A DNA stretch of 64,000 bases. It comes from Verrucomicrobia bacterium LW23 (GTDB taxonomy: Bacteria > Verrucomicrobiota > Verrucomicrobiia > Methylacidiphilales > UBA1321). Where the stretch lies: assembly GCA_003054695.1 (NCBI GenBank), contig QAZA01000045.1, positions 186,001 through 250,000 on the forward strand, written 5' to 3'. Shown one piece after another: positions 5,997-23,519 of the stretch (position 1 is its first letter; each line of letters starts with the position of its first letter). The translations under genes were made by a program, and so were the position numbers. The notes below the pieces were generated by a model. It saw only the letters and a list, made by a program, of their open reading frames with translations, did no database searches and had not been told where the DNA came from.

Positions 5997-6719
5997 ATGT
6001 CGATAAAGGCCGCACTCAACCGCATGCATTATCCGGTAACTACCCTGGGGTACGGCCGGAGGGTGGGCCTTTGGCTGCAGGGGTGCTCCATCCGTTGCCC
6101 GGGGTGCGTGAGCCAGGATACCTGGGAGGCCGGCAACGCCTTGCAACACATTGATGTGGAAGAGATTGCGCGCGTGTGGCAACGGTGGCTGCCCGCCGCG
6201 GACGGCCTCACGATCTCCGGCGGCGAGCCCTTTGACCAGCCCGAAGCCCTGCTGGCCCTGATGCGCGCCTGGCGCCGCGACGACACGCGCGGCGGCGATA
6301 TCCTTGTCTTCTCCGGCTACCCGCTGGAGACGCTGCGCGCCCGCCACCGCACCCACTTGCGCGCGCTCGATGTGCTCATCTCCGACCCCTACGAGGCCGG
6401 CGCCGGCGATACCCGCATGCTGCGCGGCAGCGATAATCAGCGCGTTACCCTGGCCACAGCGCTGGCCCGGCGCCGTTACCCGCGTGATATCAACACTTTA
6501 CCGTGGTCCGACGGGCGCCGCCGCCTGGATATGGTGGTGGCGGGCGATGACGTGTGGATGGCTGGCATCCCCCGCCGCGGCGAGCTTGCCCGCCTGCAGG
6601 CCGCCTTGCGCGAGCGCGGCCTGACGTGCGCCACCAGCCAGCAACCGCGGCAGTCATCGCAGCCGCAGCAGCCGCAAAAGCTGCAAGAGCAACCCCAGCT
6701 TCTCCCCGTGCGCGCATGA
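5997..6719 (+). CDS. NrdG-like radical SAM activating protein
   Basis: A 240-residue protein with the cluster motif C30-x3-C34-x2-C37 (LQGCSIRCPGC) and SGGEPFDQPEAL, which is the glycine-rich SAM-binding motif. Both are typical of the small 4Fe-4S single-cluster activases related to NrdG and PflA. No NrdD reductase is nearby. The last residues are Gln/Pro-rich (SQQPRQSSQPQQPQ). ATG 5997 is chosen as the closest start before the conserved N terminus. Its TGA overlaps the ATG of the FHA gene (ATGA), so the two are translationally coupled. The substrate protein may be linked to the FHA partner; that is inference. Confidence 0.85.
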   Translation: MSIKAALNRMHYPVTTLGYGRRVGLWLQGCSIRCPGCVSQDTWEAGNALQHIDVEEIARVWQRWLPAADGLTISGGEPFDQPEALLALMRAWRRDDTRGGDILVFSGYPLETLRARHRTHLRALDVLISDPYEAGAGDTRMLRGSDNQRVTLATALARRRYPRDINTLPWSDGRRRLDMVVAGDDVWMAGIPRRGELARLQAALRERGLTCATSQQPRQSSQPQQPQKLQEQPQLLPVRA

Positions 6720-7762
6720 GCCTTACCCCCTCCCAACTGGCCGCCCAGGCCCCGCCGCCCACGCCCGCTCCGCTTCAACCCGCGGCGGCGGCGAGGACCA
6801 AGCGTTGCCCCTCGTGCGGCCTCTCGTGCCCCGGCGACGCGTTTTTCTGCAGCCAATGCGGCGCGGATGTATCGCTGGAGCGCTCCGAGCTGCGCCAGGA
6901 CGTTGCGCACGCCGCCCCCACTCCTGCGGCCGCCGCCGCCCCAGTGCCGGCCCCCGCCGCGGTTGCGTTCCCGCAACCTGTTGCGGGGCAGGGATCTGCG
7001 CGCAACACGGCCTCTCTGCCCAAGCTGGCGCCGCCTCTGTCCCCCACGCCGCAGCCTCCGCCCGCCCCTTCGCAGCCGCCGCGCAAGTTGCCGCCGCCGG
7101 TACCGCCGCATCTCTCCGGCGCGGTGCCTGCCGCCGCCGCCGCACCGTCGCCCGGGCCCGGACCCGCCGCGGCGCCGGCCCCCGCGCAGGGGGGGGTGGG
7201 CACGCTGGTGTGTCCGCAATGCGCGTTTGCCAACCCTGGGTTTGCTATATTGTGCATGTCGTGCGGGGCGGATCTGGCCAAGGCGGCGCCGGCCGGATCC
7301 CTTAGCGGCGTCATCGCGCACTCCGCCTCAGCTGCCACCGGCGCGCCGCCCGCCCCGCCGGTGCGCGATCGCACCACGCCCGCGCCGCCGCCCGTCCCCG
7401 GCTCCTCGGCGCGGATCAAAAGCGCCGCCGCCGCCTTGCACGCGCCCGCGCCGCGCCTGGAGCTGGTGATTGGCAACAAAAGCTTTGAGTGCCACGACGG
7501 CGACGTGCTCGGCCGCGCCGGCACGCTGGCCAGTGATCTGTTTGCGCCCTTCGGCACCGTCTCGCGCCAGCATGCCAGCATTGTGCTGCAGGGCAACCGC
7601 TGGTTCGTCGTCCCCAGCCCCAGCGTGCACAACGCCACACGCCTGGACGGCGTGGAGCTGCGCCGCGGCGAGCCCACCGCGCTGACGGGGGAGCATGTCC
7701 TCGGCATGTCCAGCAAGTGCGAGGTAAAGCTGCGCGTGGTGCATGCGCCCATCGAGGCGTAG
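6716..7762 (+). CDS. Double zinc-ribbon, Pro/Ala-rich linker and FHA-domain protein
   Basis: A 348-residue protein. Residues 31-48 form a zinc ribbon (CPSCG..CSQCG), a second ribbon lies near residue 165 (CPQCAFANPG..CMSCG), and the C terminus (about 245-345) is an FHA domain with GRAGTLASDLFAPFGTVSRQHA, containing the SRxH phosphothreonine-recognition motif. The intervening stretches are Pro/Ala-rich and probably disordered. FHA domains bind phosphothreonine peptides, so a Ser/Thr kinase is expected elsewhere. It is coupled by a 4-bp overlap to the radical SAM gene. No signal peptide, so cytoplasmic. Confidence 0.88.
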   Translation: MSLTPSQLAAQAPPPTPAPLQPAAAARTKRCPSCGLSCPGDAFFCSQCGADVSLERSELRQDVAHAAPTPAAAAAPVPAPAAVAFPQPVAGQGSARNTASLPKLAPPLSPTPQPPPAPSQPPRKLPPPVPPHLSGAVPAAAAAPSPGPGPAAAPAPAQGGVGTLVCPQCAFANPGFAILCMSCGADLAKAAPAGSLSGVIAHSASAATGAPPAPPVRDRTTPAPPPVPGSSARIKSAAAALHAPAPRLELVIGNKSFECHDGDVLGRAGTLASDLFAPFGTVSRQHASIVLQGNRWFVVPSPSVHNATRLDGVELRRGEPTALTGEHVLGMSSKCEVKLRVVHAPIEA

Positions 7763-7865
7763 CGCGGTTGGTGCAAGCGGCGTTTGGGCGATGACGCCCG
7801 GCCCGCGCAACCCGTTGGGCCGCAGCTCCTTTGTCGCGGCAAGCATAAATATTGTGGCTGGGTGC

Positions 7866-7894
7866 TTGACGGGGAGGCTTGCTGGCTTTACCTA
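7866..7894 (+). promoter_or_regulatory. Possible sigma-70 promoter for pyrG
   Basis: TTGACG at 7866-7871 is separated by 17 bp from TACCTA at 7889-7894. The -35 box is good but the -10 box is poor, so this is only a candidate. It lies about 130 bp before the pyrG start. Confidence 0.3.
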
Positions 7895-7951
7895 ATTCCC
7901 TTTCGTATTTCGGGCGGCGACCGGGCTTTGGGCTGCGGGCGGCGTGCGTGA

Positions 7952-9631
<1,680 letters not shown>

Positions 9632-11129: not shown

Positions 11130-12518
11130 CTACTTGGCCTGGGACTGCCGGTATTGCTCGGACATCGTCGCCTTGCGCTGGCTGCTGCTCATGGGGGCGG
11201 CGGTTGTGCCGCGGGCGGCCTTGTTGAGGTTTTGCTCTTCGCGCTCCAGCTCCACAATCTGCAAAGGCTTCACGGCGCCGCCGGAGGCGCGGGACTTGTC
11301 GATAAGGATCTGCACCTTCTTCTCGTTCTCGCGCAGGATCTTGTTAGCCTGCTGATAGTCGCCGGCGTCGCTGTAGCGCACGGCTTCCTGCTTGGCAACG
11401 GCGGTGTCCTGCAGCTCGCGGCCCATCTGCACGTTCAGGTCGATCGACTTGTCGGCTTCGGCCACGTCTTTAGTGTAGGCAATGCTCACCACCTTCTCGG
11501 TCTCCACGCGCTTGCCGGAGTTCAGTTCGTCATCATAGCTTACCTGCACCTTGGCGACCTCGCGGGTGGCGTCGCTGTCGTTGGCGGGCATGCGGCAGCG
11601 CAGGTAAATGTAGCGCTGCTGGCCGCTGTAAAAGGGGGCAAACTCGACGTCGCTGCTGTTCTTGTCGGTGTCAAACTTCTCCTCGCGGCCGATCAGGCTG
11701 ATGGGTTCCACGCCTTTGGGCAAGACGATGCGGATGCGGATATTGCGCGCCGTAATGGAGAGCAGCTGGCCCAGCTCCTTCTCAAAGATGGACTGCAGCT
11801 TCTCTACGTCCTTCACGTAGTAATAGTTGGCGTCGCTGGCCACGGCCAGCGCGGTCATCAGGTCCTCGTTATAGTCGTCGCCCAGGCCTATGGTGCTGAC
11901 GGACATGCTTTTGCGCGAGAGGCGGCGGCCCAGGTCGCGCACGTCCTCCGTGCTGCTGGGGCCCACGTTGGCCAGGCCGTCGGAGAGCAGGATGACGCGG
12001 TTGATGTTCTTCGACTCGAAGTAGCGCTGCAGCTGGCGGCCGCCTTCCTCCACGCCGGCGTAGAGCGCCGTGCTGCCGCCGGGCTGAATGCGCATGATCT
12101 TGGCGCGGATGTCGGCCTTGCTTTCCAACTTTTGCGCGGGGATCAGCACTTCCACACTGCTGTCGTACGCCACCAGCGAGAAGGTGTCCTCCGACCCAAG
12201 CTGGTCCAGCAGCGCCGCGGCGGCCTGGCGCGCCTTTTCAATCTTGGCACCCGACATGGAGCTGGAGCGATCCAGCACCACGGCCAGGTTCAGCGGCAAC
12301 CGCTTGCCGCCCTTCACTTTGTCGGCGTCCAGGTCAATCTTGATGACGACCTCTTGCGGCCTGCCGTAAATGAGTTTGGATTGCTCCGGCGAGAGGCGCA
12401 GGTTCAGCGTCTCCGCCCGGGCCGTAGCCGGCGCACCCAACAGCACAGCGCCGGCGATGCAAACCGCGGCCAGCCCAAAGGCGGCGGCGGTAAGTTTGAG
12501 AAACAGGTTGGATTTCAT
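11130..12518 (-). CDS. Exported von Willebrand factor A domain protein
   Basis: A 462-residue protein with an N-terminal signal peptide (residues about 1-35, AGAVLLGAPATARA). The vWA domain has a complete MIDAS motif, DRSSSMSG at residues 83-90, plus GGSTALYAGVEEG and ILLSDGLANVGPSS, so metal-dependent binding of a partner is likely. The region after the vWA domain (about 270-400) looks like a beta-sandwich with FAPFYSGQQRYIYLRCRMP. The C terminus is a charged helical tail. This arrangement resembles secreted vWA proteins of the YfbK type. It is a single transcription unit ending at the terminator near 10.9 kb. Confidence 0.88.
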   Translation of the reverse strand: MKSNLFLKLTAAAFGLAAVCIAGAVLLGAPATARAETLNLRLSPEQSKLIYGRPQEVVIKIDLDADKVKGGKRLPLNLAVVLDRSSSMSGAKIEKARQAAAALLDQLGSEDTFSLVAYDSSVEVLIPAQKLESKADIRAKIMRIQPGGSTALYAGVEEGGRQLQRYFESKNINRVILLSDGLANVGPSSTEDVRDLGRRLSRKSMSVSTIGLGDDYNEDLMTALAVASDANYYYVKDVEKLQSIFEKELGQLLSITARNIRIRIVLPKGVEPISLIGREEKFDTDKNSSDVEFAPFYSGQQRYIYLRCRMPANDSDATREVAKVQVSYDDELNSGKRVETEKVVSIAYTKDVAEADKSIDLNVQMGRELQDTAVAKQEAVRYSDAGDYQQANKILRENEKKVQILIDKSRASGGAVKPLQIVELEREEQNLNKAARGTTAAPMSSSQRKATMSEQYRQSQAK

Positions 12519-12670
12519 GCAACCAACCTACGCCAAAAGCCAAACCCGGTTGTCAGAGGGCCGTCAAACAATTGTAAAAGAATTGTATGAGGGGAAACCG
12601 GGGGAAATGGAGAGGAGACGAGGGATTTTTTACCGCGGAAAGGATAGAAGCGGGGAGCGAGAAAGAGGGC

Positions 12671-12761
12671 CCTTGGCAATCTTTCCGTCCTTGGCGTTAA
12701 AAATCTGTTGGATTGTACGGCGAGGGAATTTTTAACGCCAAGGACGGAAAGATCGCCAAGG
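12671..12761. repeat. Family C1 inverted repeat
   Basis: The left arm 12671-12705 contains CCTTGGCAA, TCTTTCCGT, CCTTGGCGT and then TAAAAATC. The right arm 12727-12761 is its reverse complement with about two mismatches. It sits between the vWA and CHAP genes; flanking bases at 12778-12794 (TTCGAATGTCGACAGCCTC) recur near the other family C copy and near 48357. Confidence 0.88.
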
Positions 12762-12794
12762 CTGAGAAGGGGATAATTCGAATGTCGACAGCCT

Positions 12795-13463
12795 CTAGCC
12801 CTGCTTTTTGCGCAGCCAGCCGGCGACGGGCTGGCCGTACATCTCCAGGTGGTAGTTGCCGTCTGCATCTTTTTGCAGCTGCAACGTAACGCGGGTGTTG
12901 TCGGCGCCACAGTTCTGTTGAACTACGTCCACCACATTGCCCTGCACTTTGGTGATGATGGCCACGTGGCCGTAGCCGCCGGCGATGAGCTGGGAGACGA
13001 GCAGGTCGTCCGCCTGCGGGGGGACGTTGCCGCCGTTGCGGTATTGCAGCAGGTCTCGCTTGGCGTTTACCTCGCCCTGGGGCGTTTCGTTGTCGAAGAA
13101 GTCGCGCGCGTGGCCAAAGACTTCGGGCATGGCGTGGCCCAGGGCATCAAAGTAAAAGCGTTTGATGTACTCCACGCACTGCCAGCGCTGGCCGTAGTAG
13201 TAGCCGGTGAGGCTGAAGTGGCGGCCGTGGCTCTTCACGAAATCGGGGCCGTTATCGTACACTTTAACGCCGCGGTAGCTGTCGATAACCGGCTGGGGCC
13301 GCTCGTCCACGTGATCCGCCGCAATGGCGCCCAGCAGCACGCAGCGATCGCTAAATTTTTGCGGCTGTGCGGGTTGCATGGCCTGCCATATCAGGTAGCC
13401 TGCCGTGCCCAGGCCGAGAAGGAGGAGGATGCGTTGCGTTAGGGATAAAGTCTTCGGTTTCAT
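12795..13463 (-). CDS. CHAP-domain amidase/peptidase, membrane-anchored or exported
   Basis: A 222-residue protein. The start used is the ATG at 13463 (MKPKTLSLTQRILLLLGLG), which gives a clean signal anchor; an upstream ATG at 13511 would bury it. The CHAP cysteine is Cys96 in YYGQRWQCVEYIKRFY and the histidine is His166 in GGYGHVAII, followed by QQNCGADN. The wording is close to the amidase half of glutathionylspermidine synthase/amidase and to related CHAP peptidoglycan amidases. Likely substrate is therefore a peptidoglycan stem peptide or glutathionylspermidine-like amide; the sequence cannot decide. Confidence 0.85.
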   Translation of the reverse strand: MKPKTLSLTQRILLLLGLGTAGYLIWQAMQPAQPQKFSDRCVLLGAIAADHVDERPQPVIDSYRGVKVYDNGPDFVKSHGRHFSLTGYYYGQRWQCVEYIKRFYFDALGHAMPEVFGHARDFFDNETPQGEVNAKRDLLQYRNGGNVPPQADDLLVSQLIAGGYGHVAIITKVQGNVVDVVQQNCGADNTRVTLQLQKDADGNYHLEMYGQPVAGWLRKKQG

Positions 13464-13550
13464 GTGCTGTGTGAAGAAGCTGAGGCAAACTTCGCCGGGC
13501 AGTCGCGCCATCTTACACCAAATGCGGGCGCGGCGCTCGGTCTCTTTCTC

Positions 13551-14411
13551 TTACTCCTTCTCCTTCAGGGGTTTCCCGCTCTTCGCGGTGTCCGGCACAG
13601 CGGCGCCTTCCTCCACGGTAACCGAGCAGGTGAGGCCCGAGGCGATGTGGACGGAGCCAGGCACGGCGTCCAGCGCAACGCGCACGGGGATGCGCTGGGC
13701 CAGGCGCACCCAGGTAAACACCGGGTTGACGCTGGCCAGGCCCTCGCGGTCGGGCGTGGCGTTGGTGTCGCTGATGCCGCGGCTGATGCCCTGCACGCGG
13801 CCGGTGAGGGGGGTGCCGCCCTGCATCAGGTGCACGCGTACGCGGGCGCCGATGGCGATGCGGGGCAGTTTGGTCTCCTCAAAGTAGCCGACAACGTAGA
13901 ACGAGTCGGCATCCACCACCGAGATTTGCGGGGTGCCAGCGCTGACAAAGTCGCCGGCGCGCAGGGTGAGGTTGGTGATGTATCCGTTCACGGGCGCGCG
14001 CACCACGCAGCGCTCCACGTTCAGCCTGGCGATGTCGCGCTCAGCCTCGGCCTGGCGAAGGAGAGCCTTGCGGGTTTCGATTGCCATAGAGTCCGGAACT
14101 CTTTGCTCGGCCCGGCGTTGCTCCACGGCCGCCTCGGCCAGGGCAAGGGCCAGGAGAAAGCGCTCCTTGTCGATGGTGAAAAGCGGGTCGCCCTTTTTGA
14201 CGTACTGGTTATCCGCCACGCGCAGCTCGGCCACAGTGCCGGAGACCTCGGGCGCGATGCGCACTACCTCGGCGCGCACGCGGCCGTCGCGCGTCCAGGG
14301 GGCCACCACATAGTAGTTCCAGAGCAGCCAGAGGGCGACGACGCCGCCCGTTACCATAATCGCGGTGTAGAATCGCGCCCTGAATTCCTTTGCCGAGATC
14401 GTCCACGCCAT
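13551..14411 (-). CDS. HlyD-family periplasmic adaptor (AaeA/EmrA-like)
   Basis: A 286-residue membrane-fusion protein: a transmembrane helix (about 16-33), a biotinyl-lipoyl half (VRIAPEVSGTVAELRVADNQYVKKGDPLF), a helical hairpin (LALAEAAVEQRRAEQRV..RLNVERCVVRAPVNG) and a second beta-barrel region (FYVVGYFEETKLPRIAIG). The FEETKLP wording is typical of AaeA-like adaptors. ATG 14411 is chosen over an upstream start because the helix then lies near the N terminus. It follows the DUF1656 gene by 23 bp, as in aaeXAB operons, but no FUSC permease (AaeB) is in the window. Confidence 0.92.
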   Translation of the reverse strand: MAWTISAKEFRARFYTAIMVTGGVVALWLLWNYYVVAPWTRDGRVRAEVVRIAPEVSGTVAELRVADNQYVKKGDPLFTIDKERFLLALALAEAAVEQRRAEQRVPDSMAIETRKALLRQAEAERDIARLNVERCVVRAPVNGYITNLTLRAGDFVSAGTPQISVVDADSFYVVGYFEETKLPRIAIGARVRVHLMQGGTPLTGRVQGISRGISDTNATPDREGLASVNPVFTWVRLAQRIPVRVALDAVPGSVHIASGLTCSVTVEEGAAVPDTAKSGKPLKEKE

Positions 14412-14434
14412 AGAAGGTGTTGTCGTTGTTAAGC

Positions 14435-14641
14435 TTAGCCCATCCGGGCGTACCACTCGTGGGCCACCACCACCAGGGCCAGCAGCACCACATACAGGGC
14501 TGTCTTGAAGAGCGGCGGATGCCACACGTGCACATCCACCCGCGGCAACGCCAGCCGCAGGGCCAGGTACAGCGCGGCGGCCTGCAGCGCGCAGATCATC
14601 AGTGGCGGCAGGTACAGGCCCATGATGTTGTACTCGTGCAT
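14435..14641 (-). CDS. DUF1656 (AaeX-like) small inner-membrane protein
   Basis: A 68-residue protein with two hydrophobic helices (about 9-30 and 46-63) and the family opening MHEYNIMGLYLPPLMICA. DUF1656 proteins accompany HlyD and FUSC subunits of aromatic-acid and other efflux pumps; their biochemical role is unclear. It lies between the TonB receptor (23 bp) and the HlyD gene (23 bp), in the same direction, so the four genes from the FecR-domain gene onward look like one operon. Confidence 0.92.
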   Translation of the reverse strand: MHEYNIMGLYLPPLMICALQAAALYLALRLALPRVDVHVWHPPLFKTALYVVLLALVVVAHEWYARMG

Positions 14642-14664
14642 GTGGGAGAAGTCGAGGTCCGCCC

Positions 14665-17217
14665 TTAAAACGTCACCTTAAGCCCGCCGGCAAAACCGCG
14701 GCCGGGGGCCGGGGTGACGAGGCCGCCGGCGGCGGAGGAGCGGCTTTGGGCGAAGTAGCTCTCGTCGAACACGTTAGTGATGTTGAAGAAAGCCGTAACG
14801 CGATCGCCCGCGAAGGTGTGCTCCAGCTCCAGGTCAAACACCGTGTAGGCGGGGATCTCCGAGAAGGAGAGGCGCTGCGTGGAGCGCCAGTTATCGCCCA
14901 GGTGATCCGAAACGTGTGTGCCGGAGAAGGCGGCCTTCCAGCGATTTTGATAGTTGTACTCCAGCCCAAACTTGGCGATAAAGCCGGGCGTGTAAGGTGT
15001 GTCGAGGCCAGCCGGCAGGGGGGCGCCGGCGGCGTTGAGTTGCAGCGCTTCCTCCACCGTGCCGTGCTGCAAGGTAATGGCGCTGAAGAGGTTGAGCTGG
15101 CCGAAGCGCGCCAGGCCGTCGGGCGTTACCTCCATCGCCTTCGCGTCCTTCGGATCGGGCACCGCGTCGTAGCGGCGCGCGCGTCTGCCACCAAACGCGT
15201 CGGCCAGGCCAAAGAGATCGGCCTGCATAAAGAACTCGCCACCATAGGTTTGCGTGGTGGCGGCGTTGCTTGCCTCCAGTCTGGGGGAGATCGCCACGTT
15301 GTCGTTGGAGGGCGCGCTGATGAGATCCTCCGAGCGGCGCCAGAAGCCCGAGACATCGTACGTGAACCACGACGCCGGGTTGCCGCGCACGCCGAGCTCG
15401 CCGTTCCAGCTGGTGGGCTGGGTCAAATCGTTGGGCACGCGCACATCGCCGCGGCGCTGCATCGCCTCCACGTAGGTGAGCGGCTGAAGCGAGCGCGAGG
15501 CGTTGGCGTAAAGCACCGCGGGGCGCTGGAAGCTGCTGGCGCCCAGCGCCAGGTCAAACTCGGTGCCGAGTGAGAAAAGCGGGACGACATCCTCCTGCAT
15601 GCGGCGGACGGGATCGGCGCTGATGGCCGGACTGTTCGTCGTAAAGTCTTCGCCCTCAGCTTGTTGTCGCAGGTACTCCAGGCGAATGCCGGGCGTTACC
15701 ATCCAGCGCTCCGTAACGCGGAACATGTTCTCCGCAAAGAGCGCGGCGCTGAACTCGCTGGCCGTCAGGTCGCGCAGCGGGGAGCCGGGGAAGAAGCCGG
15801 CGGCGTTCTGGAAAAGCGACGAGTTGTCCAGCCCGGCGTGGATGGTGGTGACGGAGCCCTGCAGCTTTGCCCCCGCAGTCAGCACATGCCCGGTGGACTC
15901 CCCGCCGCACAGATCGTAGCCGCGCATCCACCGTAACTCCGTGCCGGGGAAGATGATGCGTGTGTCCGACGTTTGCTGCGTAAAGGCGGATTGCCCGGGC
16001 GGCGGCGCCACGGTGCCGCGCGTGTTGATGGCGATATGCTGGTCGGTGTCGCTGTACCAGGTGCGCCACTCGATGCGGCTGTCCGGCGCAAAGTCGCGCG
16101 CGTAAAGGGCTGTAACCAGATGCTTTTCCACCTCCTGCCAGCCGGGCACGCCGCCGGTAAGGCCGCCGGTTTGCGTCGGGTCGTTCGCAAACTCGGCGCG
16201 GGTGAGGCCCATGCCGGGCACGCCAATCTGGTAGTCGCTGGCAAAGCCAAAGAGGTCGTAATCCGCAAATATATACTGCATTGTGAGCGTGGCGCCCTCC
16301 CCCGTGGGGATGATGAGCTTGACTCCGGCCGACGCGCGGTCGAAGTCCGACCCGTTGTTGTAGCCCGTGCCGGTGGCGTACTTGCCAAACACGGAGTAGC
16401 CCATGCCCTCCACCGTGCCGCCCGCGCGGGTGAGGCTCTCGAAGTAGTCGTCGGAGCCATACGTAAAGGTGGTGCTGGCGCGCAGCAACTGGTCGCCGGG
16501 CGCATCGTAGCCGACAAAATTGACCGCGCCGCCGGGGGGCGCGCCGTAGAGCACGCTGCTGCCGCCCTGCACAAACTGGATCTGCGACACTGCGTTGATG
16601 TCCGGCACGTAGAAGACCTGGCGCAGCCCGCTGAAATCCGCGTTGAGCGGGAAGCCGTCGAGCATGACGGCGACCTGATCCGAGTAGGCGGGCGAGGTGC
16701 CGCGGAAGCTGAGATTCATGCGTGCGCCCTGGCTGCCTTCTTCTTCAATCAGCAGGCCGGTTTTTTTGCGCAGCGCGGTGCGGTAATTCTGGTTGATGTT
16801 GATGGGTTGCGCGGCGGGATCGATAAAGAAAGTCTTTTTGCCGGCGTAGATGTTGGCCGCTTCCACATCCGCCAAAAAGCCCGCGCCCTTGAGTTTGGTA
16901 AGATTACGCAGCTCCACCTCGCTCATGCGGCGTTCCTGGGGATCCCCATACTGCGAGCGCGTGGGGCCGTAGGCGGAGGACGGCGTGGCGCCCACCGGCG
17001 TGGCGCGCGGGGCGGGGCTGGGGGCCGCCTCCTGGGCGCGCGCGTGCGTGGCGGGCGCTGCCGGCAGCATAAGCAGCACCAGCATCGTCGTCGTCACGGC
17101 AACGGCTGTCGCGATATCCCGTAACGCATCACGCAACGCAAAACGCCCCGCGGCGCGGGGCTTTTCGCTCCAACCTTTTGGCTTGGAGGCGTTTGCGTTG
17201 TGCGTTTGTGGGATCAT
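14665..17217 (-). CDS. TonB-dependent outer-membrane receptor
   Basis: An 850-residue receptor. A long N-terminal region contains a hydrophobic segment (about 36-53) and AHARAQ-like processing site near residue 60, then a plug domain (about 110-250: LRKKTGLLIEEEGSQGARMN, VMLDGFPLNAD, IQFVQGGSSVLYGAPPGGAVN) and a beta-barrel ending in phenylalanine (GGLKVTF), as expected for BAM recognition. The barrel resembles FecA/siderophore-type receptors, but the ligand cannot be read from sequence. Its ATG overlaps the stop of the FecR-domain gene (ATGA), implying coupled translation. The downstream genes encode DUF1656 and HlyD, an unusual pairing for a TonB receptor. Confidence 0.93.
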   Translation of the reverse strand: MIPQTHNANASKPKGWSEKPRAAGRFALRDALRDIATAVAVTTTMLVLLMLPAAPATHARAQEAAPSPAPRATPVGATPSSAYGPTRSQYGDPQERRMSEVELRNLTKLKGAGFLADVEAANIYAGKKTFFIDPAAQPININQNYRTALRKKTGLLIEEEGSQGARMNLSFRGTSPAYSDQVAVMLDGFPLNADFSGLRQVFYVPDINAVSQIQFVQGGSSVLYGAPPGGAVNFVGYDAPGDQLLRASTTFTYGSDDYFESLTRAGGTVEGMGYSVFGKYATGTGYNNGSDFDRASAGVKLIIPTGEGATLTMQYIFADYDLFGFASDYQIGVPGMGLTRAEFANDPTQTGGLTGGVPGWQEVEKHLVTALYARDFAPDSRIEWRTWYSDTDQHIAINTRGTVAPPPGQSAFTQQTSDTRIIFPGTELRWMRGYDLCGGESTGHVLTAGAKLQGSVTTIHAGLDNSSLFQNAAGFFPGSPLRDLTASEFSAALFAENMFRVTERWMVTPGIRLEYLRQQAEGEDFTTNSPAISADPVRRMQEDVVPLFSLGTEFDLALGASSFQRPAVLYANASRSLQPLTYVEAMQRRGDVRVPNDLTQPTSWNGELGVRGNPASWFTYDVSGFWRRSEDLISAPSNDNVAISPRLEASNAATTQTYGGEFFMQADLFGLADAFGGRRARRYDAVPDPKDAKAMEVTPDGLARFGQLNLFSAITLQHGTVEEALQLNAAGAPLPAGLDTPYTPGFIAKFGLEYNYQNRWKAAFSGTHVSDHLGDNWRSTQRLSFSEIPAYTVFDLELEHTFAGDRVTAFFNITNVFDESYFAQSRSSAAGGLVTPAPGRGFAGGLKVTF

Positions 17218-18110
17218 GTGCCCTGGGCGGCCCTGCTTTTAGGTGGTGGCGATGGCTTTTTGGTGCTTGCCGCATCCTGGGCGGCGGCTTCCTGCTCAAT
17301 CAGCTTGGCGCCCGGCAGGCGGCTGCGAAAGCGTGTCATCAGCCCGTTGGTGCGGGCAAAATCGCGGATGTTGAAGGTGCGCAGCGGCGCCGCGTAGTCG
17401 CGCCGGGTGCCGGTAAGGCGCAGAATTTGCCCGGGCATCATCATGTGCGGGCCCACTTTGCAGCGGCCCTCCAGGCACGCGTAGGTAACGCTGCCCGGGC
17501 GCACGCTTACATAAATGGTGGTGCCCATCACGGCCGCCGACAACGCCGGCGTGGTGATGGTGGTGTTGCCCTGCCCCTTGGGCACGCTCAGCAAGCCTTC
17601 GCCTTCGTCGACCTTAAGGGCGCGGCTGCCGCCTTCAAAGCTAAAAATCGTGCGCTCGCCAATGCGAAACAGCGAGCGGTCCGCAAACTCAAACTCCGCG
17701 CGGGAGGCCGCGCCCGTGCGCGCGTACTCGCCCGTACTCATCGTCACCCCTTTGGTGAGCGGCGACGACGCCGTTTTGCCCAGCGGGCCCTTGTTCACCG
17801 TGCCCTCGGACATGGTGACTTTGGCGGTCTTCAGCGTCGTTTGCGCGCGCGCGGAATTCCCCGGCACGCCGCCCATCAGCACAGCCGCCGCCAGTGCAAG
17901 GGCCGGCAAAATCGGCGCCAGCGAGCGCCACGCCGCGCGGATAGCCGTACGCGCCGACCCGGCCGCCCCTGCCGTGCGAGGGGAAAGCGGTGTGCGCGCC
18001 TGCGCGGGCATGGCGGCGGAAGCGGAGGACGCCGCGGCCGCCGTGCGAGGCAGGAGATGTTGCCCCTGGGAGAAGATCATGGCAGCCTGAGAGTTAGCAC
18101 GCATTTTCAT
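17214..18110 (-). CDS. Exported FecR-domain protein
   Basis: A 298-residue protein. Residues about 100-230 form a FecR-type beta domain: KTAKVTMSEGTVNK, GEYARTGAASRAEFEFADRS, IGERTIFSFE and VPKGQGNTTITTPALSAAVMGTTIYV. A hydrophobic stretch (about 64-80) followed by SARAQ looks like a late signal peptide, meaning the real start may be an internal ATG (for example codon 34, MPAQAR). There is no cytoplasmic anti-sigma domain and no ECF sigma gene beside it, so it is probably not a classical FecR regulator. The C terminus is Pro/Lys-rich. It is translationally coupled to the TonB receptor. Confidence 0.85.
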   Translation of the reverse strand: MKMRANSQAAMIFSQGQHLLPRTAAAASSASAAMPAQARTPLSPRTAGAAGSARTAIRAAWRSLAPILPALALAAAVLMGGVPGNSARAQTTLKTAKVTMSEGTVNKGPLGKTASSPLTKGVTMSTGEYARTGAASRAEFEFADRSLFRIGERTIFSFEGGSRALKVDEGEGLLSVPKGQGNTTITTPALSAAVMGTTIYVSVRPGSVTYACLEGRCKVGPHMMMPGQILRLTGTRRDYAAPLRTFNIRDFARTNGLMTRFRSRLPGAKLIEQEAAAQDAASTKKPSPPPKSRAAQGT

Positions 18111-18113
18111 TGT

Positions 18114-18142
18114 TGTATACGTAATAATGTGAAAGCTGTCAC
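18114..18142 (-). promoter_or_regulatory. Sigma-70-like promoter abutting the FecR-domain gene
   Basis: On the minus strand GTGACA (18142-18137) is followed after 17 bp by TATACA (18119-18114). The -10 box ends only 3 bp before the annotated ATG, so a transcript from here would be leaderless or would start inside the annotated frame, in favour of an internal start codon. Confidence 0.5.
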
Positions 18143-18337
18143 TCGGTTACTGACGCCCCCGCATGCCGTGCAATCCCCGGAGGCTCGAGCGTTAGACGAG
18201 CGGCGTCGCCTTTCATGCATCCAATGATGCACCCAAAGATCCTGCGCCTGGGGCAGCCGGCTTGCGCCGGCAATCGTTCGCGCCGAGTTTGAGCTTGTAG
18301 CCCCCGCGTTTATTCCCGAGAAACGACAGCACCCGCT

Positions 18338-19273
18338 ATGCCTCCCACCAGTCCTATCGATCCTTTTAGCAAAGTGCGGCTGCTGCGGACGTACAGCACC
18401 GAGCAGCTTGCCCGCGAGTGGCGCGACTACTTCCAGATTGACGTAACGGAGGAGTTCCGGGATTGCCCCGAGATCCGCAAGTACCTGTGCGAGAACTCCG
18501 GCCTGGCCTTCTTTACGCCGCCGCAGGCCGAGGGCTCCCGCGCCCTCTACAACGCGCTCTCCGCCTTCGACTGGTATTACATGACCGACAAGTGGGAGTA
18601 CGACGTGGCGGCCCGCCTCCTCAGCCCCGGCCGGCGCGTGCTGGAGGTGGGCTGCGGCGCCGGCGCGTTTGTACGCCAGGCAGCGCGGCGCACGGGATCC
18701 GCCACCGGCCTGGAGATTAACCCGCGCACGGAGGAAGTGGCTGGCGTGGAGGGCGTTACGATTCGCCGGCAGATGCTGGCCGACTTTCTGGCGCAAGCCC
18801 CGGAGCGGGCGCGAGATGATGCGGCGGCCGGCCCCTTCGATGTCGTCTGCTCCTTCCAGGTGCTGGAGCACATTGCGCAGCCCATGGATTTTCTGCGCGA
18901 CTGCGTGCGCGCCGTCAAGCCAGGCGGCAGGCTCCTGCTGGGCACGCCCAACGCAAGCGGCTTCCTGCGCCGCTCCCACAACCTGCTGGATCTGCCCCCG
19001 CACCACATGGGGCACTGGAACGCCCGCGCCTTCCGCTACCTCCAGCACATCCTGCCCGTGCGGCTGGACGCCCTGCACTACGAGCCCCTGGCGCCCTACC
19101 ACGTCGATTATTACCTCGACACCATGGCCGCCCACTACACAGCGCGCAAAAGCAGTCGCGCCCTGCTGTACAAGGGGCCGGCCCGCACCGCCTTCAGGTT
19201 CCTGCTGGCCAACGGCATGCGCCGCCTCTTCCGCGGCCAGAGCATGCTGGCGTGCTACACACGCACCGGGTAG
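18338..19273 (+). CDS. Class I SAM-dependent methyltransferase
   Basis: A 311-residue cytosolic methyltransferase. Motif I is RRVLEVGCGAGAFVRQAA (about 101-118), the acidic loop TGLEINPRTEEVA follows, and VVCSFQVLEHIAQPMDFLRD then LKPGGRLLLGTPN-like VKPGGRLLLGTPN complete the fold. This pattern is the UbiG/BioC/SmtA-like group and often acts on sugars or small molecules in glycan clusters. The N-terminal region (EFRDCPEIRKYLCENSGLAFF) resembles the zinc-less head of O-antigen-type methyltransferases. The substrate is unknown; no glycosyltransferase is adjacent. Confidence 0.9.
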   Translation: MPPTSPIDPFSKVRLLRTYSTEQLAREWRDYFQIDVTEEFRDCPEIRKYLCENSGLAFFTPPQAEGSRALYNALSAFDWYYMTDKWEYDVAARLLSPGRRVLEVGCGAGAFVRQAARRTGSATGLEINPRTEEVAGVEGVTIRRQMLADFLAQAPERARDDAAAGPFDVVCSFQVLEHIAQPMDFLRDCVRAVKPGGRLLLGTPNASGFLRRSHNLLDLPPHHMGHWNARAFRYLQHILPVRLDALHYEPLAPYHVDYYLDTMAAHYTARKSSRALLYKGPARTAFRFLLANGMRRLFRGQSMLACYTRTG

Positions 19274-19366
19274 GGAGGAAAAAGCACTGCTGCAATCAGT
19301 CCCATTGAGGACCAGGATGAAAGGCCAATACTCGCGAGTGAGCCTTCCTTGCCTCCGGTCTCCTTT

Positions 19367-19525
19367 CCCCCGTTGCGTACGTTGCGTTTCTGCTCCGCCC
19401 GTTGCGACCGTTGCGTGAAAATCCGCTCCACGGTTTGCTACACCTTGTAGCTGGGCGAACTCCCTAACGGATTTCACGCAACGGTCGCAACGGGCAGAAC
19501 AGAAACGCAACGTACGCAACGGGGG
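19367..19525. repeat. Family D: CGTTGCG iteron inverted repeat
   Basis: The left arm (19367-19425) has CGTTGCGTA, CGTTGCGTT, TCTGCTCCG, CCCGTTGCG, ACCGTTGCG and then TGAAAATCC. The right arm (19468-19525) is its reverse complement with few mismatches, around a 42-bp loop. It is the main content of the 460-bp gap 19274-19733; nothing else there is recognisable. Confidence 0.9.
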
Positions 19526-19733
19526 CTTGAGCAGGCCTTGTTCAAACTCCTGAATGAACTTTGAGTAGCAGAAGAATTGTATACACCTTTACCAGAATCC
19601 TGTACCACTTCCAGGTTCTCAGAAATCCCAGGTCCGCATCCTTGCTTTCACAACATTCGCCCGCCCCTCTGGGCCCAGCGCGCCCCCTTTTTGGTGTTGG
19701 CCGCGAGGTCGGAGTGGCGTAAGCTATCCTTTT

Positions 19734-21122
19734 ATGGACGATCTGGATCAACTCCGTCAGGCAGTCAACGCGTCTCCCAACAACGTCCCGCTGCTCCTTA
19801 TATTTGCCGCCAATTGCGTCAACTCCCTCGCCTTCGACGAGGCGCGCGACACGTTCCAGAAGATCCTGGCCCTCGAGCCCACGCACGTCTCCGCCCGCAT
19901 CGGCCTCTTTCACGTGCTGCACCTTACCGGCAAAACCAGCGAGGCCATCCTGCGCACAGAAGCCTTTTTGCAGGAGAACCCCCGCGTGGCCCAGGCCTGG
20001 CTGCTCCTCTCCCGCCTGGTGCTGACCGAAGGCCAGCTGGACCAGGCGCGCCAGCACTTCCTCAAAGCGCGCTCGCTGGACCGCACCGTCACCAACCCCG
20101 GCCTGGAGAAAGAACTCTTTCCCAACGGCAACACCCCCCCGCCCCTGCCCACCGACGCCCAGATGGCCGCCGCCCTGGCCGAAGCCGATGACGACGAGGA
20201 CGATGACGAAGAAGGCGATGACGACGACGCCATGTTTGACGACATCGACGACGACGCCATGGAAACCCCCAGCCTGGCCTTTGCCGACGTGGGCGGCATG
20301 GATAATGTGAAGGAAGAGCTGCGGATGAAAATCCTTTACCCGCTGCAAAACCCGGATCTCTTCCGCGCCTACGGCAAAAAAATCGGCGGCGGCGTTCTGC
20401 TGTACGGCCCCCCCGGCTGCGGCAAAACCATGCTCTCCCGCGCCGTGGCGGGCGAAATGCAGCGCAGCTTTATCTCCATCGGCCTGCACCAGATCCTCGA
20501 TCTGCACCTGGGCGACAGCGAGAAAAACCTGCACCAGCTGTTTGAACTGGCCCGCGATAATAAACCCGCCGTCCTCTTTTTTGACGAAGTGGACGCCCTG
20601 GCCGCGGACCGCAACGACCTGCGCAAAAGCGCCGGCCGCACCCTCATCAACCAGTTCCTTGCCGAGATGGACGGCAGCGTGCGCGACAACGACGGCCTCC
20701 TCATCCTCGGCGCCACCAACGCCCCCTGGCACATCGACCCCGCCTTCCGCCGCCCCGGCCGCTTCGACCGCATGATCTTCGTCCCCCCGCCCGACGAACC
20801 CGCCCGCGCCGCCATCATCACCGTCATGGCCAAGGACAAACCGGTCACCGACCTCGACGCCCTGGCCGTCGCCCGCAAAACCAAGGACTTCTCCGGCGCG
20901 GATTTGAAGCACGTCTTCGACGTCACCATCGAACGCTGCCTGGCCACCGCCATGAAAAAAGGCATGGTCGTGCCCATCACCACGGCGGATCTCATCCAGA
21001 GCGCCAAAGACATCAAACCCAGCAGCAAAGCGTGGTTCGAAAGCGCCCGCAACTATGCGTTGTATGCGAACCAAAGCGGCTTCTACGACGACGTCCTGCA
21101 GTTTCTCGGGCTGAAGAAGTAG
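19734..21122 (+). CDS. TPR-AAA+ ATPase with acidic linker
   Basis: A 462-residue protein. Residues 1-125 are tetratricopeptide-like (EARDTFQKILALEPTHVSAR, AILRTEAFLQENPRVAQAW). Residues 152-175 are almost all Asp/Glu. The rest is a Cdc48/FtsH-type AAA+ module: Walker A GPPGCGKT (225-232), Walker B VLFFDEVD (280-287), sensor 1 GATN (326-329), arginine-finger region RRPGRFDR (339-346) and the small domain with KDFSGADLKHVFD. No protease domain or membrane helix is present. It likely remodels proteins recruited through the TPR part. It is monocistronic. Confidence 0.92.
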   Translation: MDDLDQLRQAVNASPNNVPLLLIFAANCVNSLAFDEARDTFQKILALEPTHVSARIGLFHVLHLTGKTSEAILRTEAFLQENPRVAQAWLLLSRLVLTEGQLDQARQHFLKARSLDRTVTNPGLEKELFPNGNTPPPLPTDAQMAAALAEADDDEDDDEEGDDDDAMFDDIDDDAMETPSLAFADVGGMDNVKEELRMKILYPLQNPDLFRAYGKKIGGGVLLYGPPGCGKTMLSRAVAGEMQRSFISIGLHQILDLHLGDSEKNLHQLFELARDNKPAVLFFDEVDALAADRNDLRKSAGRTLINQFLAEMDGSVRDNDGLLILGATNAPWHIDPAFRRPGRFDRMIFVPPPDEPARAAIITVMAKDKPVTDLDALAVARKTKDFSGADLKHVFDVTIERCLATAMKKGMVVPITTADLIQSAKDIKPSSKAWFESARNYALYANQSGFYDDVLQFLGLKK

Positions 21123-21195
21123 TGAGCGCAAAGGAAGCGGGGCCAGTGGCGAGGTGAAAGCACGTTGGGCACCCCGCAGGCTGGCTAACTCCCAC

Positions 21196-22047
21196 TCACT
21201 CCGCCCGGTACAGCGATTCCCCAGCGTACGTCAGCACGTCTACGCCGCGCACAAAGCATTGATGGCACGGGGGTTCCGCGGGCTCGGGCAGGCCGCAGGC
21301 TACCAGCGGGTGGGTGGAGTATTTCTCCACCACGGCTTCCGAATACCGATACGGCGTGTGCGCCACTTGTGCGCGTAAGATGTTGCCTTTGTGCAGGCTG
21401 TGCAGGTAGTAGCGCTCCACAAAAAAGAATTCCAGCGAGCCGGGCTCCGCCACGCGCTCCGGGCCGGTGCCGCGGTAGATGTAGGCGGACGTGGGGCGAT
21501 CGCGGCCGTGCAGGGCGTCGGGGGAGAGCTCGTGGCGGGTGCTGGCGTAGGCGATTTCGGGCGGGGCGTCTGTGGGGGCGGAGCCGCCGCTCGGCATTAC
21601 AGTAAAGCTGGCGGACATTGTGGCGTGTAAGTACGGCAGGCCGAACATGTTACGCGCTATCCACACCGTCAGCGGGCGCTCGCACTCCAGCGCGTAAAAC
21701 CACACGCCGGGCACGCCTTCGCGGTCGTGCACGTAGGTGCGCACGTTCAGCTCCAGAAAGTGCGAAATCCAGGGCACGGCAGGCAGCCCGCGCGGCCGTA
21801 TGTTGCGCATAAACAAGGGAACGACAGCGACATACGCATGGCCCTCATACGTATCCACATACAGGCCGGCCGGCAGCGATCGCTGCACCACATCGGCCGG
21901 GCAGCGCCAGTGGAGAAAGAGCAGCGACTCCCAGCGCTGGTGAATCACCATCGGCCGGCGCTTGTCCCAGACGCGCGCCGCCAGCCGCGCCTCCGGGGTC
22001 GGCGTCGGGATCAGCGATGGCGCGGCGGCGAGCATGGTGGGCGCCAT
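21196..22047 (-). CDS. DUF2071 (YqjF-like) protein
   Basis: A 283-residue protein matching the DUF2071 family: MVIHQRWESLLFLHWRCP, SLPAGLYVDTYEGHAYVAVVP, GVPGVWFYALECERPLTVWIA, and RPTSAYIYRGTGP with a terminal DVLTYAGESLYRA. The fold is related to acetoacetate decarboxylase-like barrels, but family members have no proven reaction. ATG 22047 (MAPTMLAAAPS) was preferred; the frame extends to 22113. It is divergent from the CrtC-like gene with about 80 bp between. Confidence 0.88.
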   Translation of the reverse strand: MAPTMLAAAPSLIPTPTPEARLAARVWDKRRPMVIHQRWESLLFLHWRCPADVVQRSLPAGLYVDTYEGHAYVAVVPLFMRNIRPRGLPAVPWISHFLELNVRTYVHDREGVPGVWFYALECERPLTVWIARNMFGLPYLHATMSASFTVMPSGGSAPTDAPPEIAYASTRHELSPDALHGRDRPTSAYIYRGTGPERVAEPGSLEFFFVERYYLHSLHKGNILRAQVAHTPYRYSEAVVEKYSTHPLVACGLPEPAEPPCHQCFVRGVDVLTYAGESLYRAE

Positions 22048-22127
22048 CCTGAGCGTTTTGGCAATCGGAGTCAATCGCGCCGCCCGGTCTTGCCTGTGCG
22101 CAAAAATCTGCAATCTTTGTAGGCGAG

Positions 22128-23519
22128 ATGCGCACCCACCGCCACCCCCGCGCGACGCTGCTTTCCCTTACCGTCGCGGCATTGTATCTCCTTGCGCCCA
22201 TTGCCTTTGCGCAGATGGACCCCACCGACGCCGGCATTGAGCCCGGCGGCAAACGCAACATCACGCCACCGTCTGTCTCCCCGTCGCAAACCCCGGTGGC
22301 CGAAACGCCCGCGTCCGCCGGCTGGAAACGCGCCATCGCGCCATGGAAATGGAGCTTCCCCGCCGACCACGGCGCGCACCCCGATTTCCGCACCGAATGG
22401 TGGTACTTCACCGGCCACTTGCAGGAAGCTAACTCCATCAACGACAAAGACATCCCCACCTCCACCCCCATCCCGAAGCCCGACCCGCTGGCCACCGGCA
22501 CGCAACCCAGCTACGACCCCGACGTGCCGGCCGATGGTACGCCGGGCGGCGCCGAGTACCTGCGCGTGGACAAAGTGGTGGGCGACAAAAAGCCCGACGG
22601 CCGCCGCTTCGGCTTCCAGTTCACCCTGTTTCGCTACGGCCTGCAGTTTACGCCCGTGCAGGTGACCAGCAAGTGGGCCGTGCGCGACGTGATGTTTGGC
22701 CACATGGCGCTGACGGATCTCAACGCGAAGCGCTTTTATTTTGGGGAGATCCTTGATCGCGGCGCGCTGAACCAGGCCGGCGCCTCGACAAAGGAGATGA
22801 AGGCGTGGATTCGCAACTGGCGGATCGAAACTGTTGGGCCTGAGGAATATAGAGTGCGTGGCGAGACACCGGAGTTTGGCATGGACATGGTTATTACGCC
22901 GCGCAAAAAGCTGGTGCTGCAGGGCGCCGCCGGTTTGAGCCAGAAGGCGGAGGGCGCCGGCAACGCGTCGTACTATTACAGCTACACGCGCATGACGGCG
23001 GCCGGCTGGGTGCGGATCAACGCGACGCAATACCTGGTGCGCGGGGAGAGCTGGTTTGACCACGAGTTCAGCACGGGCTCGCTGGGGAAGGATCAGATTG
23101 GCTGGGACTGGTTTAGCATACAACTGGATAACGACGAAGAGCTGATGCTCTACGAAATGCGCCGCGCCGACGGCAAGCGCGACCCGCGTAGCAAAGGCAT
23201 CCTCGTCCGCGCCGACGGCACCACACTAACCCTTGGCGTGGAAGACTTTAAGATCGAAACTCTGGCCCGCTGGCGCAGCCCTGGGACGGGCGGCGATTAC
23301 CCCAGCAAATGGAAAATCAGCGTGCCTAAAGCCGGCCTGGAACTCGAATCCACCGCCGCTGTGGCCGACCAGGAGCTGCGCCTGCGCCAGCTCAGCCGCC
23401 TCAATTACTGGGAGGGCGTCTGCAACCTAACCGGCACCCGCGAAGGCAAGCCGGTGACCGGCCGCGGCTACACGGAGCTTACCGGCTACGCCTCCCCGCT
23501 GGGGGAGGGAATGCGGTAG
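22128..23519 (+). CDS. Secreted CrtC/AttH-like lipocalin-fold hydratase
   Basis: A 463-residue protein with a Sec signal peptide (residues 1-28, LLAPIAFAQ). The conserved N-terminal block DHGAHPDFRTEWWYFTGHL and the later WFDHEFSTGSLGKDQIGWDW and LMLYEMRRADG match the carotenoid 1,2-hydratase / AttH family. A 45-residue Pro/Asp-rich insertion follows the first block. Exported AttH-like proteins typically go with a LolCDE-like ABC transporter; none is here, although the next gene is LolA-like. Its substrate is probably a hydrophobic lipid, not necessarily a carotenoid. Confidence 0.9.
   Translation: MRTHRHPRATLLSLTVAALYLLAPIAFAQMDPTDAGIEPGGKRNITPPSVSPSQTPVAETPASAGWKRAIAPWKWSFPADHGAHPDFRTEWWYFTGHLQEANSINDKDIPTSTPIPKPDPLATGTQPSYDPDVPADGTPGGAEYLRVDKVVGDKKPDGRRFGFQFTLFRYGLQFTPVQVTSKWAVRDVMFGHMALTDLNAKRFYFGEILDRGALNQAGASTKEMKAWIRNWRIETVGPEEYRVRGETPEFGMDMVITPRKKLVLQGAAGLSQKAEGAGNASYYYSYTRMTAAGWVRINATQYLVRGESWFDHEFSTGSLGKDQIGWDWFSIQLDNDEELMLYEMRRADGKRDPRSKGILVRADGTTLTLGVEDFKIETLARWRSPGTGGDYPSKWKISVPKAGLELESTAAVADQELRLRQLSRLNYWEGVCNLTGTREGKPVTGRGYTELTGYASPLGEGMR

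Follow-up and report, generated by a model that had tools for sequence, protein, structure and literature searches.

The window (the whole stretch of DNA analysed, 64,000 nucleotides) contains four consecutive minus-strand genes, encoding a FecR-domain protein, a TonB-dependent receptor, a DUF1656 (AaeX-like) protein and an HlyD/AaeA-type periplasmic adaptor (Table 1). These genes had been named in the initial annotation, and their coordinates, strand and families were confirmed, the named family of each gene scoring above its curated Pfam cut-off: FecR protein (PF04773), 43.9 bits (cut-off 24); receptor, barrel 93.3 bits (27) and plug 40.9 bits (23.9); DUF1656, 54.0 bits (26.5); adaptor, HlyD_3 67.5 bits (22.2), together with barrel-sandwich and lipoyl families. 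Two further matches, OMP_b-brl_3 and Ytca, scored under their cut-offs. The FecR stop and the receptor start overlap as ATGA (17217–17214), as had also been read from the sequence; gaps of 23 nt each lie between the receptor stop and the DUF1656 start and between the DUF1656 stop and the HlyD ATG at 14411. No FUSC gene was found among or beside the four genes.

Table 1. Features of the window discussed in the text and, in the last two lines, receptor genes of two other loci.
Feature	Position	Strand	Description and basis
FecR-domain protein	17214..18110	-	operon gene 1; 298 aa; FecR domain, residues 130–216; Pfam
TonB-dependent receptor	14665..17217	-	850 aa; plug 143–230, beta-barrel 319–816; Pfam
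DUF1656 (AaeX-like) protein	14435..14641	-	68 aa; Pfam and genome search
HlyD/AaeA-type periplasmic adaptor	13551..14411	-	286 aa counted from ATG; short alpha-hairpin; Pfam, alignments, model
Hairpin turn of the short adaptor	14091..14105	-	residues 103–107; 22 missing consensus columns close by; alignment and models
CHAP-domain protein	12795..13511	-	39 nt past HlyD; Pfam
Methyltransferase	18338..19273	+	divergent from FecR; Pfam
Receptor of L216 (Pseudoduganella)	12166–14160		near a complete FUSC-DUF1656-HlyD set
Receptor of L260 (Chromohalobacter)	6426–8459		near a complete FUSC-DUF1656-HlyD set

The methyltransferase gene forms the upstream boundary of the operon; at the other end, the CHAP gene is a possible fifth member of the transcript, and its product gave no phmmer match in loci L050–L074. 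GC and GC3 contents of the four genes are about those of the neighbours, GC3 of DUF1656 being a bit higher (0.913). The promoter scan returned 1 site (0.9 expected) and the terminator scan 11 terminator-like sites (5.2 expected), of which every minus-strand one lies within a gene. Elsewhere in the window, positions 19734–21122 encode an AAA ATPase that has TPR repeats at its N-terminus and also an acidic linker.

In the genome as a whole (6.6 Mb, 56 contigs, 95.4% complete) the sole FUSC gene found is on contig C39 (G000:C39:111978–114308; 776 aa; 411.4 bits to PF04632, cut-off 30.9), and the sole DUF1656 match is the window copy on contig C45. Judged from their positions, the window genes and this FUSC gene would be about 310 kb apart even with the closest abutment of the two contigs. 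Neither the window DUF1656 nor the window HlyD has a match in the 19.5 kb around the C39 gene; six proteins were scanned there, five of them beside FUSC, and for these neighbours Pfam gave one HAD hydrolase, one DUF1269 and one TPR protein, two ORFs being without a family. The permease is unlinked, not lost. The earlier statement that the expected FUSC is missing holds for the operon only; the proposed loss of the permease is ruled out by the detection of this single gene on another contig, whose product groups as sister with that of an intact operon (see below).

Gene order was compared in two surveys. In the first, 62 genomes of the order were searched for DUF1656 and 384 genomes of the class, sampled evenly from a larger group, were searched with the window HlyD (E 1e-40 or better); 26 DUF1656 + HlyD loci, containing all 26 non-window HlyD matches listed, were examined, and two loci with weak DUF1656 hits and without HlyD or FUSC match (L063, L064) were left out before counting. 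FUSC adjoins DUF1656-HlyD in 25 of the 26 loci, on the opposite strand in three of them (L149, L150, L151) and with a frame broken by unknown bases in a fourth (L062). The 26th locus, L053 (G001:C50, 10058–10450), has just a 130-aa FUSC tail, which was detected with the profile, although tblastn with one FUSC (from L050) gave no hit there at 1e-5. This locus is another broken copy of the DUF1656-HlyD locus, and integrase-looking ORFs were seen by eye directly upstream. An unusual order was observed in L058 (G025:C14, 4806–10123), with a tandem pair of FUSC genes, then HlyD, and DUF1656 last.

The second survey covered named genomes and was made with the best 80 of 593 related loci; FUSC was found within 3 kb of DUF1656-HlyD in 72 of these 80. 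The eight exceptions are seven loci of Acetobacter, Asaia or Nguyenibacter and one of Nitrospirillum with FUSC 3.3 kb downstream. All eight genomes contain FUSC, so that an unlinked FUSC has precedent and is unusual, not unique; two of them have exactly one match, both being MAGs of 1.5–1.7 Mb that are possibly incomplete. The two counts bear out the view, taken in the initial annotation, that DUF1656 and an AaeA-type HlyD usually accompany FUSC. In 2 of the 80 loci (L216, L260) DUF1656-HlyD have a genuine TonB receptor at a distance of up to 3 kb; in both cases it is encoded on the opposite strand, and FUSC is there as well. Bare proximity of a receptor is therefore not unique to the window; among the loci surveyed, only the window has a same-strand receptor upstream of the pair. 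The comparison of gene order in relatives, which had been proposed as the check on the four-gene arrangement, gave no examined locus outside the window that holds the four genes together. In the literature, as far as titles and abstract openings tell, a FUSC operon split in this way and associated with a TonB receptor was not met, which argues only weakly for its absence.

To follow the ancestry of the separated genes, one tree was made for HlyD and another for FUSC, each with 26 proteins and both from the same set of loci. The sister of the window HlyD is the HlyD of L060 (support 97/97), and that of the C39 FUSC is the FUSC of L060 (100/100); L060 belongs to genome G018 of the same order, in which FUSC, DUF1656 and HlyD are linked. 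FUSC groupings deeper than the L060 pair have weak support (82/55). Since both trees point to one linked operon, the simplest account is a single ancestral operon that was later split, and what was split was probably an ordinary FUSC-DUF1656-HlyD operon of the AaeXAB type. FUSC and DUF1656-HlyD could nevertheless have come from different ancestral operons, though the trees share one sister. The HlyD end branch measures 0.72 vs 0.22 for L060 (3.3-fold) and the FUSC end branch 0.91 vs 0.62; by these branch lengths the adaptor evolved faster than its L060 sister, and relatively more so than FUSC did.

An alignment with 106 relatives, 26 from the class survey and 80 from named genomes, served to compare the alpha-hairpin of the window adaptor. 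Measured between fixed anchors, the segment has 60 residues in the window protein vs 81–123 residues in all 106 relatives (81–83 in 100 of them). The window HlyD is without 22 consecutive consensus columns, which contain R-R, L and V-S of an RLS-like tip, and the RLS pattern is not present in it. Among the relatives the strict pattern was found in 49 of 106 (13% of shuffles) and is absent in 57, and the loose pattern in 70 of 106 (38% of shuffles); the pattern being imperfect among relatives, more weight goes to the lost length than to the lost motif. The deletion of 22 residues (66 nt) is known from one assembly. Near the hairpin junction (14085–14115) a 15-nt near-palindrome with five-base arms was noticed, which may be a trace of the deletion or due to chance.

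AlphaFold models of the window adaptor and, as control, of the relative L183 were made with 31 aligned sequences each. The window adaptor was modelled with a confident short hairpin, helices 83–102 and 108–133 (block means of pLDDT 87–98 across residues 81–140), and L183 with a long one, helices 87–118 and 127–159. Foldseek gave EmrA of EmrAB-TolC as the best solved match of the window model (22% identity).

According to the consulted part of PMC3391258, the motif RxxxLxxxxxxS at the tip of MacA, AcrA and MexA is the TolC-binding interface, HlyD carries an RLT variant of it that is likewise a TolC interface, and single changes in the tip motif weaken or abolish TolC binding. Judged from the alignment, the window adaptor has lost the tip region with which other adaptors dock on TolC. 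This is a new observation and, the missing permease being accounted for, the feature of the locus that stays out of the ordinary. With the tip lost, the adaptor probably docks less well, or in another way, on an outer membrane factor of the TolC type, and it could have ceased to function in any pump. An outer membrane factor gene was detected with our own profile within 5 of the 26 class loci and 37 of the 80 named loci, and none was detected in the window or around the C39 FUSC. An OEP-family factor with an adjoining adaptor gene occurs elsewhere in the genome (L302, in an 800-kb sample); want of such channels does not, therefore, explain the change of the hairpin.

The same data bear on the main rival to the split-pump explanation, i.e. 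decay: after its separation from FUSC, the DUF1656-HlyD pair would be a passenger behind the receptor, under relaxed selection and in the course of being lost. A deletion found in none of the 106 relatives, the 3.3-fold end branch of HlyD and the reduction of FUSC to a 130-aa tail in the class locus L053 agree with such a course. The frames of DUF1656 and HlyD are both intact, however; alignment-invariant motifs such as WTRDGR and YFEETK are retained in HlyD, whose GC3 resembles that of the neighbours; the model shows a clean short hairpin, with the pLDDT block means given above; and FUSC itself was retained. Decay is considered unlikely on balance.

The receptor and its FecR neighbour were examined for a link with the pump genes. 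In NCBIfam all receptor matches were below cut-off, the nearest named subfamily being the siderophore type (TonB-siderophor, 102.6 of 223.5 bits), an assignment by score that is far under its cut-off; no match to sequences of solved structures was obtained at 1e-3. A scan of genome contigs with the single protein gave no close relatives, and homologues in the class are 28–33% identical. Twenty-nine loci of such homologues, several of them on short contigs, were compared (25 taken from the 44 non-window matches listed, together with 4 weaker matches; L072, a receptor fragment with no matching ORF, was left out of the counts). None of the 29 contains DUF1656, FUSC or an AaeA-type HlyD; in L071 an HlyD-family gene of the RND type lies about 3 kb from the receptor homologue on the other strand.

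Same-strand ORFs of at least 140 aa whose ends lie no more than about 1.2 kb upstream of the receptor homologue were then collected: 32 ORFs came from 18 of the 29 loci, 11 loci yielded none, and 27 of the 29 had at least 800 nt upstream. None of the 32 matched FecR; three matched ExbD and three TonB_C. A conserved FecR-receptor pair is accordingly unsupported. Within the genome itself four FecR and six plug matches were found, the window pair being the only adjacent one.

A FecR domain beside a TonB receptor is what an iron regulation operon of the FecIRA type would show, and such an operon might happen to carry pump genes. The STN signalling domain defines the FecIRA-type receptor. It was not found on the window receptor, for which Pfam gave plug and barrel families only; the FecR protein has no Pfam family besides FecR and no NCBIfam match; and no ECF sigma factor was found among ten genes scanned (11130–23519). 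As both the sigma factor and the signalling domain are missing from what was scanned, the locus is probably not a FecIRA surface-signalling operon; considering also that no FecR was met in the 32 upstream ORFs from 18 of 29 receptor-homologue loci, this alternative is disfavoured, in large part refuted by its missing components, and most improbable. Iron-citrate signalling by FecIRA thus shares with the window the adjacency of FecR domain and receptor, and differs from it in three components not found here: a sigma factor gene (among the genes scanned), a signalling domain of the receptor and a further domain of the FecR protein.

A functional tie between receptor and pump genes may also be conceived without FecIRA. 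DUF1656 and the tip-less adaptor may have left efflux and serve the TonB receptor, e.g. as an inner-membrane and periplasmic accessory for the imported ligand. The tight packing of the genes (23-nt gaps, ATGA coupling), the disappearance of the part by which other adaptors dock on TolC (motif as described in the consulted part of PMC3391258) and the loss of linkage to FUSC would suit this idea. Against it speak the absence of DUF1656, FUSC and AaeA-type HlyD from all 29 receptor-homologue loci, the position of the L216 and L260 receptors on the other strand with FUSC kept, and the occurrence of the arrangement in one genome only; it is regarded as very improbable. We know of no adaptor of the AaeA-type family that works with a TonB receptor. 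A trans-envelope assembly of a new kind, in which uptake by the receptor would be linked to an inner-membrane FUSC or DUF1656 module through the recruited tip-less adaptor, is likewise held to be highly unlikely. Receptor-linked devices are favoured by nothing beyond adjacency and the lost tip, and very little credence is given to them. The two-membrane import/export device suggested in the initial annotation had been made dependent on co-occurrence of the four genes in relatives; they do not co-occur in the loci examined, DUF1656, FUSC and AaeA-type HlyD are absent from the 29 receptor-homologue loci, and the suggestion has no comparative support and fails on its own terms. If the adaptor did work with the receptor, the assembly would be new.

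The explanation that we consider likely, on the comparisons of sequence and gene order, is a split efflux system of the AaeXAB type (FUSC, aromatic acid exporter) with a diverging adaptor. An operon like that of G018 would have been broken, as the comparison with L060 supports, so that FUSC now stands alone on another contig, while DUF1656-HlyD are placed behind the FecR-TonB receptor pair, 23 nt past the receptor. The four genes, perhaps with the CHAP gene, would be transcribed from the FecR end, and DUF1656-HlyD is probably co-transcribed with an unrelated receptor, which would be a neighbour in transcription and not part of one protein machine. FUSC, supplied in trans, may still use DUF1656 and the adaptor for export of organic acids from the cytoplasm; by analogy with AaeXAB and with the operons described in the consulted parts of PMC11989028 and PMC7682875, the substrates would be aromatic or similar acids, DUF1656-HlyD assisting. 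Taken alone, the claim that FUSC works in trans with the window pair is tentative, and we put it at slightly under an even chance. Docking of the adaptor on an outer membrane factor would be abnormal or absent. On the split-pump explanation, pump genes that usually share one operon can part, with a change in the adaptor, and this provides a natural test of how far an adaptor depends on its hairpin; should the tip-less adaptor still work with FUSC and an outer membrane factor, the rule of tip-to-tip docking would need an exception in this family.

Among known systems, AaeXAB of E. coli serves the efflux of p-hydroxybenzoic acid. The window genome has the corresponding DUF1656/AaeX protein, AaeA-type adaptor and AaeB/FUSC permease, and it differs in that the permease gene is on another contig and the adaptor hairpin is 22 columns short; in NCBIfam the equivalog cut-offs were missed by all three (AaeX, 30 of 82 bits; AaeA, the best family for the adaptor, 217.2 of 400; AaeB, 107.7 of 870). 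The Zymomonas operon is given in the consulted part of PMC11989028 as FUSC-DUF1656-HlyD-TolC; in that of PMC7682875, the fusD gene of Burkholderia bucl8-fusCDE encodes a 67-aa DUF protein, DUF1656 not being named there. As far as these parts go, both operons share with the window genome a FUSC permease, a small DUF protein and an HlyD-type adaptor, and differ from it in having FUSC and the outer membrane factor inside one operon.

A likeness in gene order is offered by the seven Acetobacteraceae loci (L188, L194, L206, L228, L230, L231, L233), with DUF1656-HlyD in place and FUSC outside the fetched locus but in the genome; they differ in their full-length hairpin and in the absence of a receptor match from the locus. 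In four Acetobacteraceae loci read by eye (Pfam check: L188) an outer membrane factor gene follows HlyD, unlike in the window. These DUF1656-HlyD loci of Acetobacter, Asaia and Nguyenibacter are a possible model for a naturally split pump, two small MAGs having their single FUSC elsewhere. As for the adaptor, BesA of Borrelia, which serves an RND pump without any hairpin (consulted part of PMC4446572), resembles the window protein in departing from the standard long hairpin; in BesA, as described there, the whole hairpin is gone, whereas the window adaptor retains a short one.
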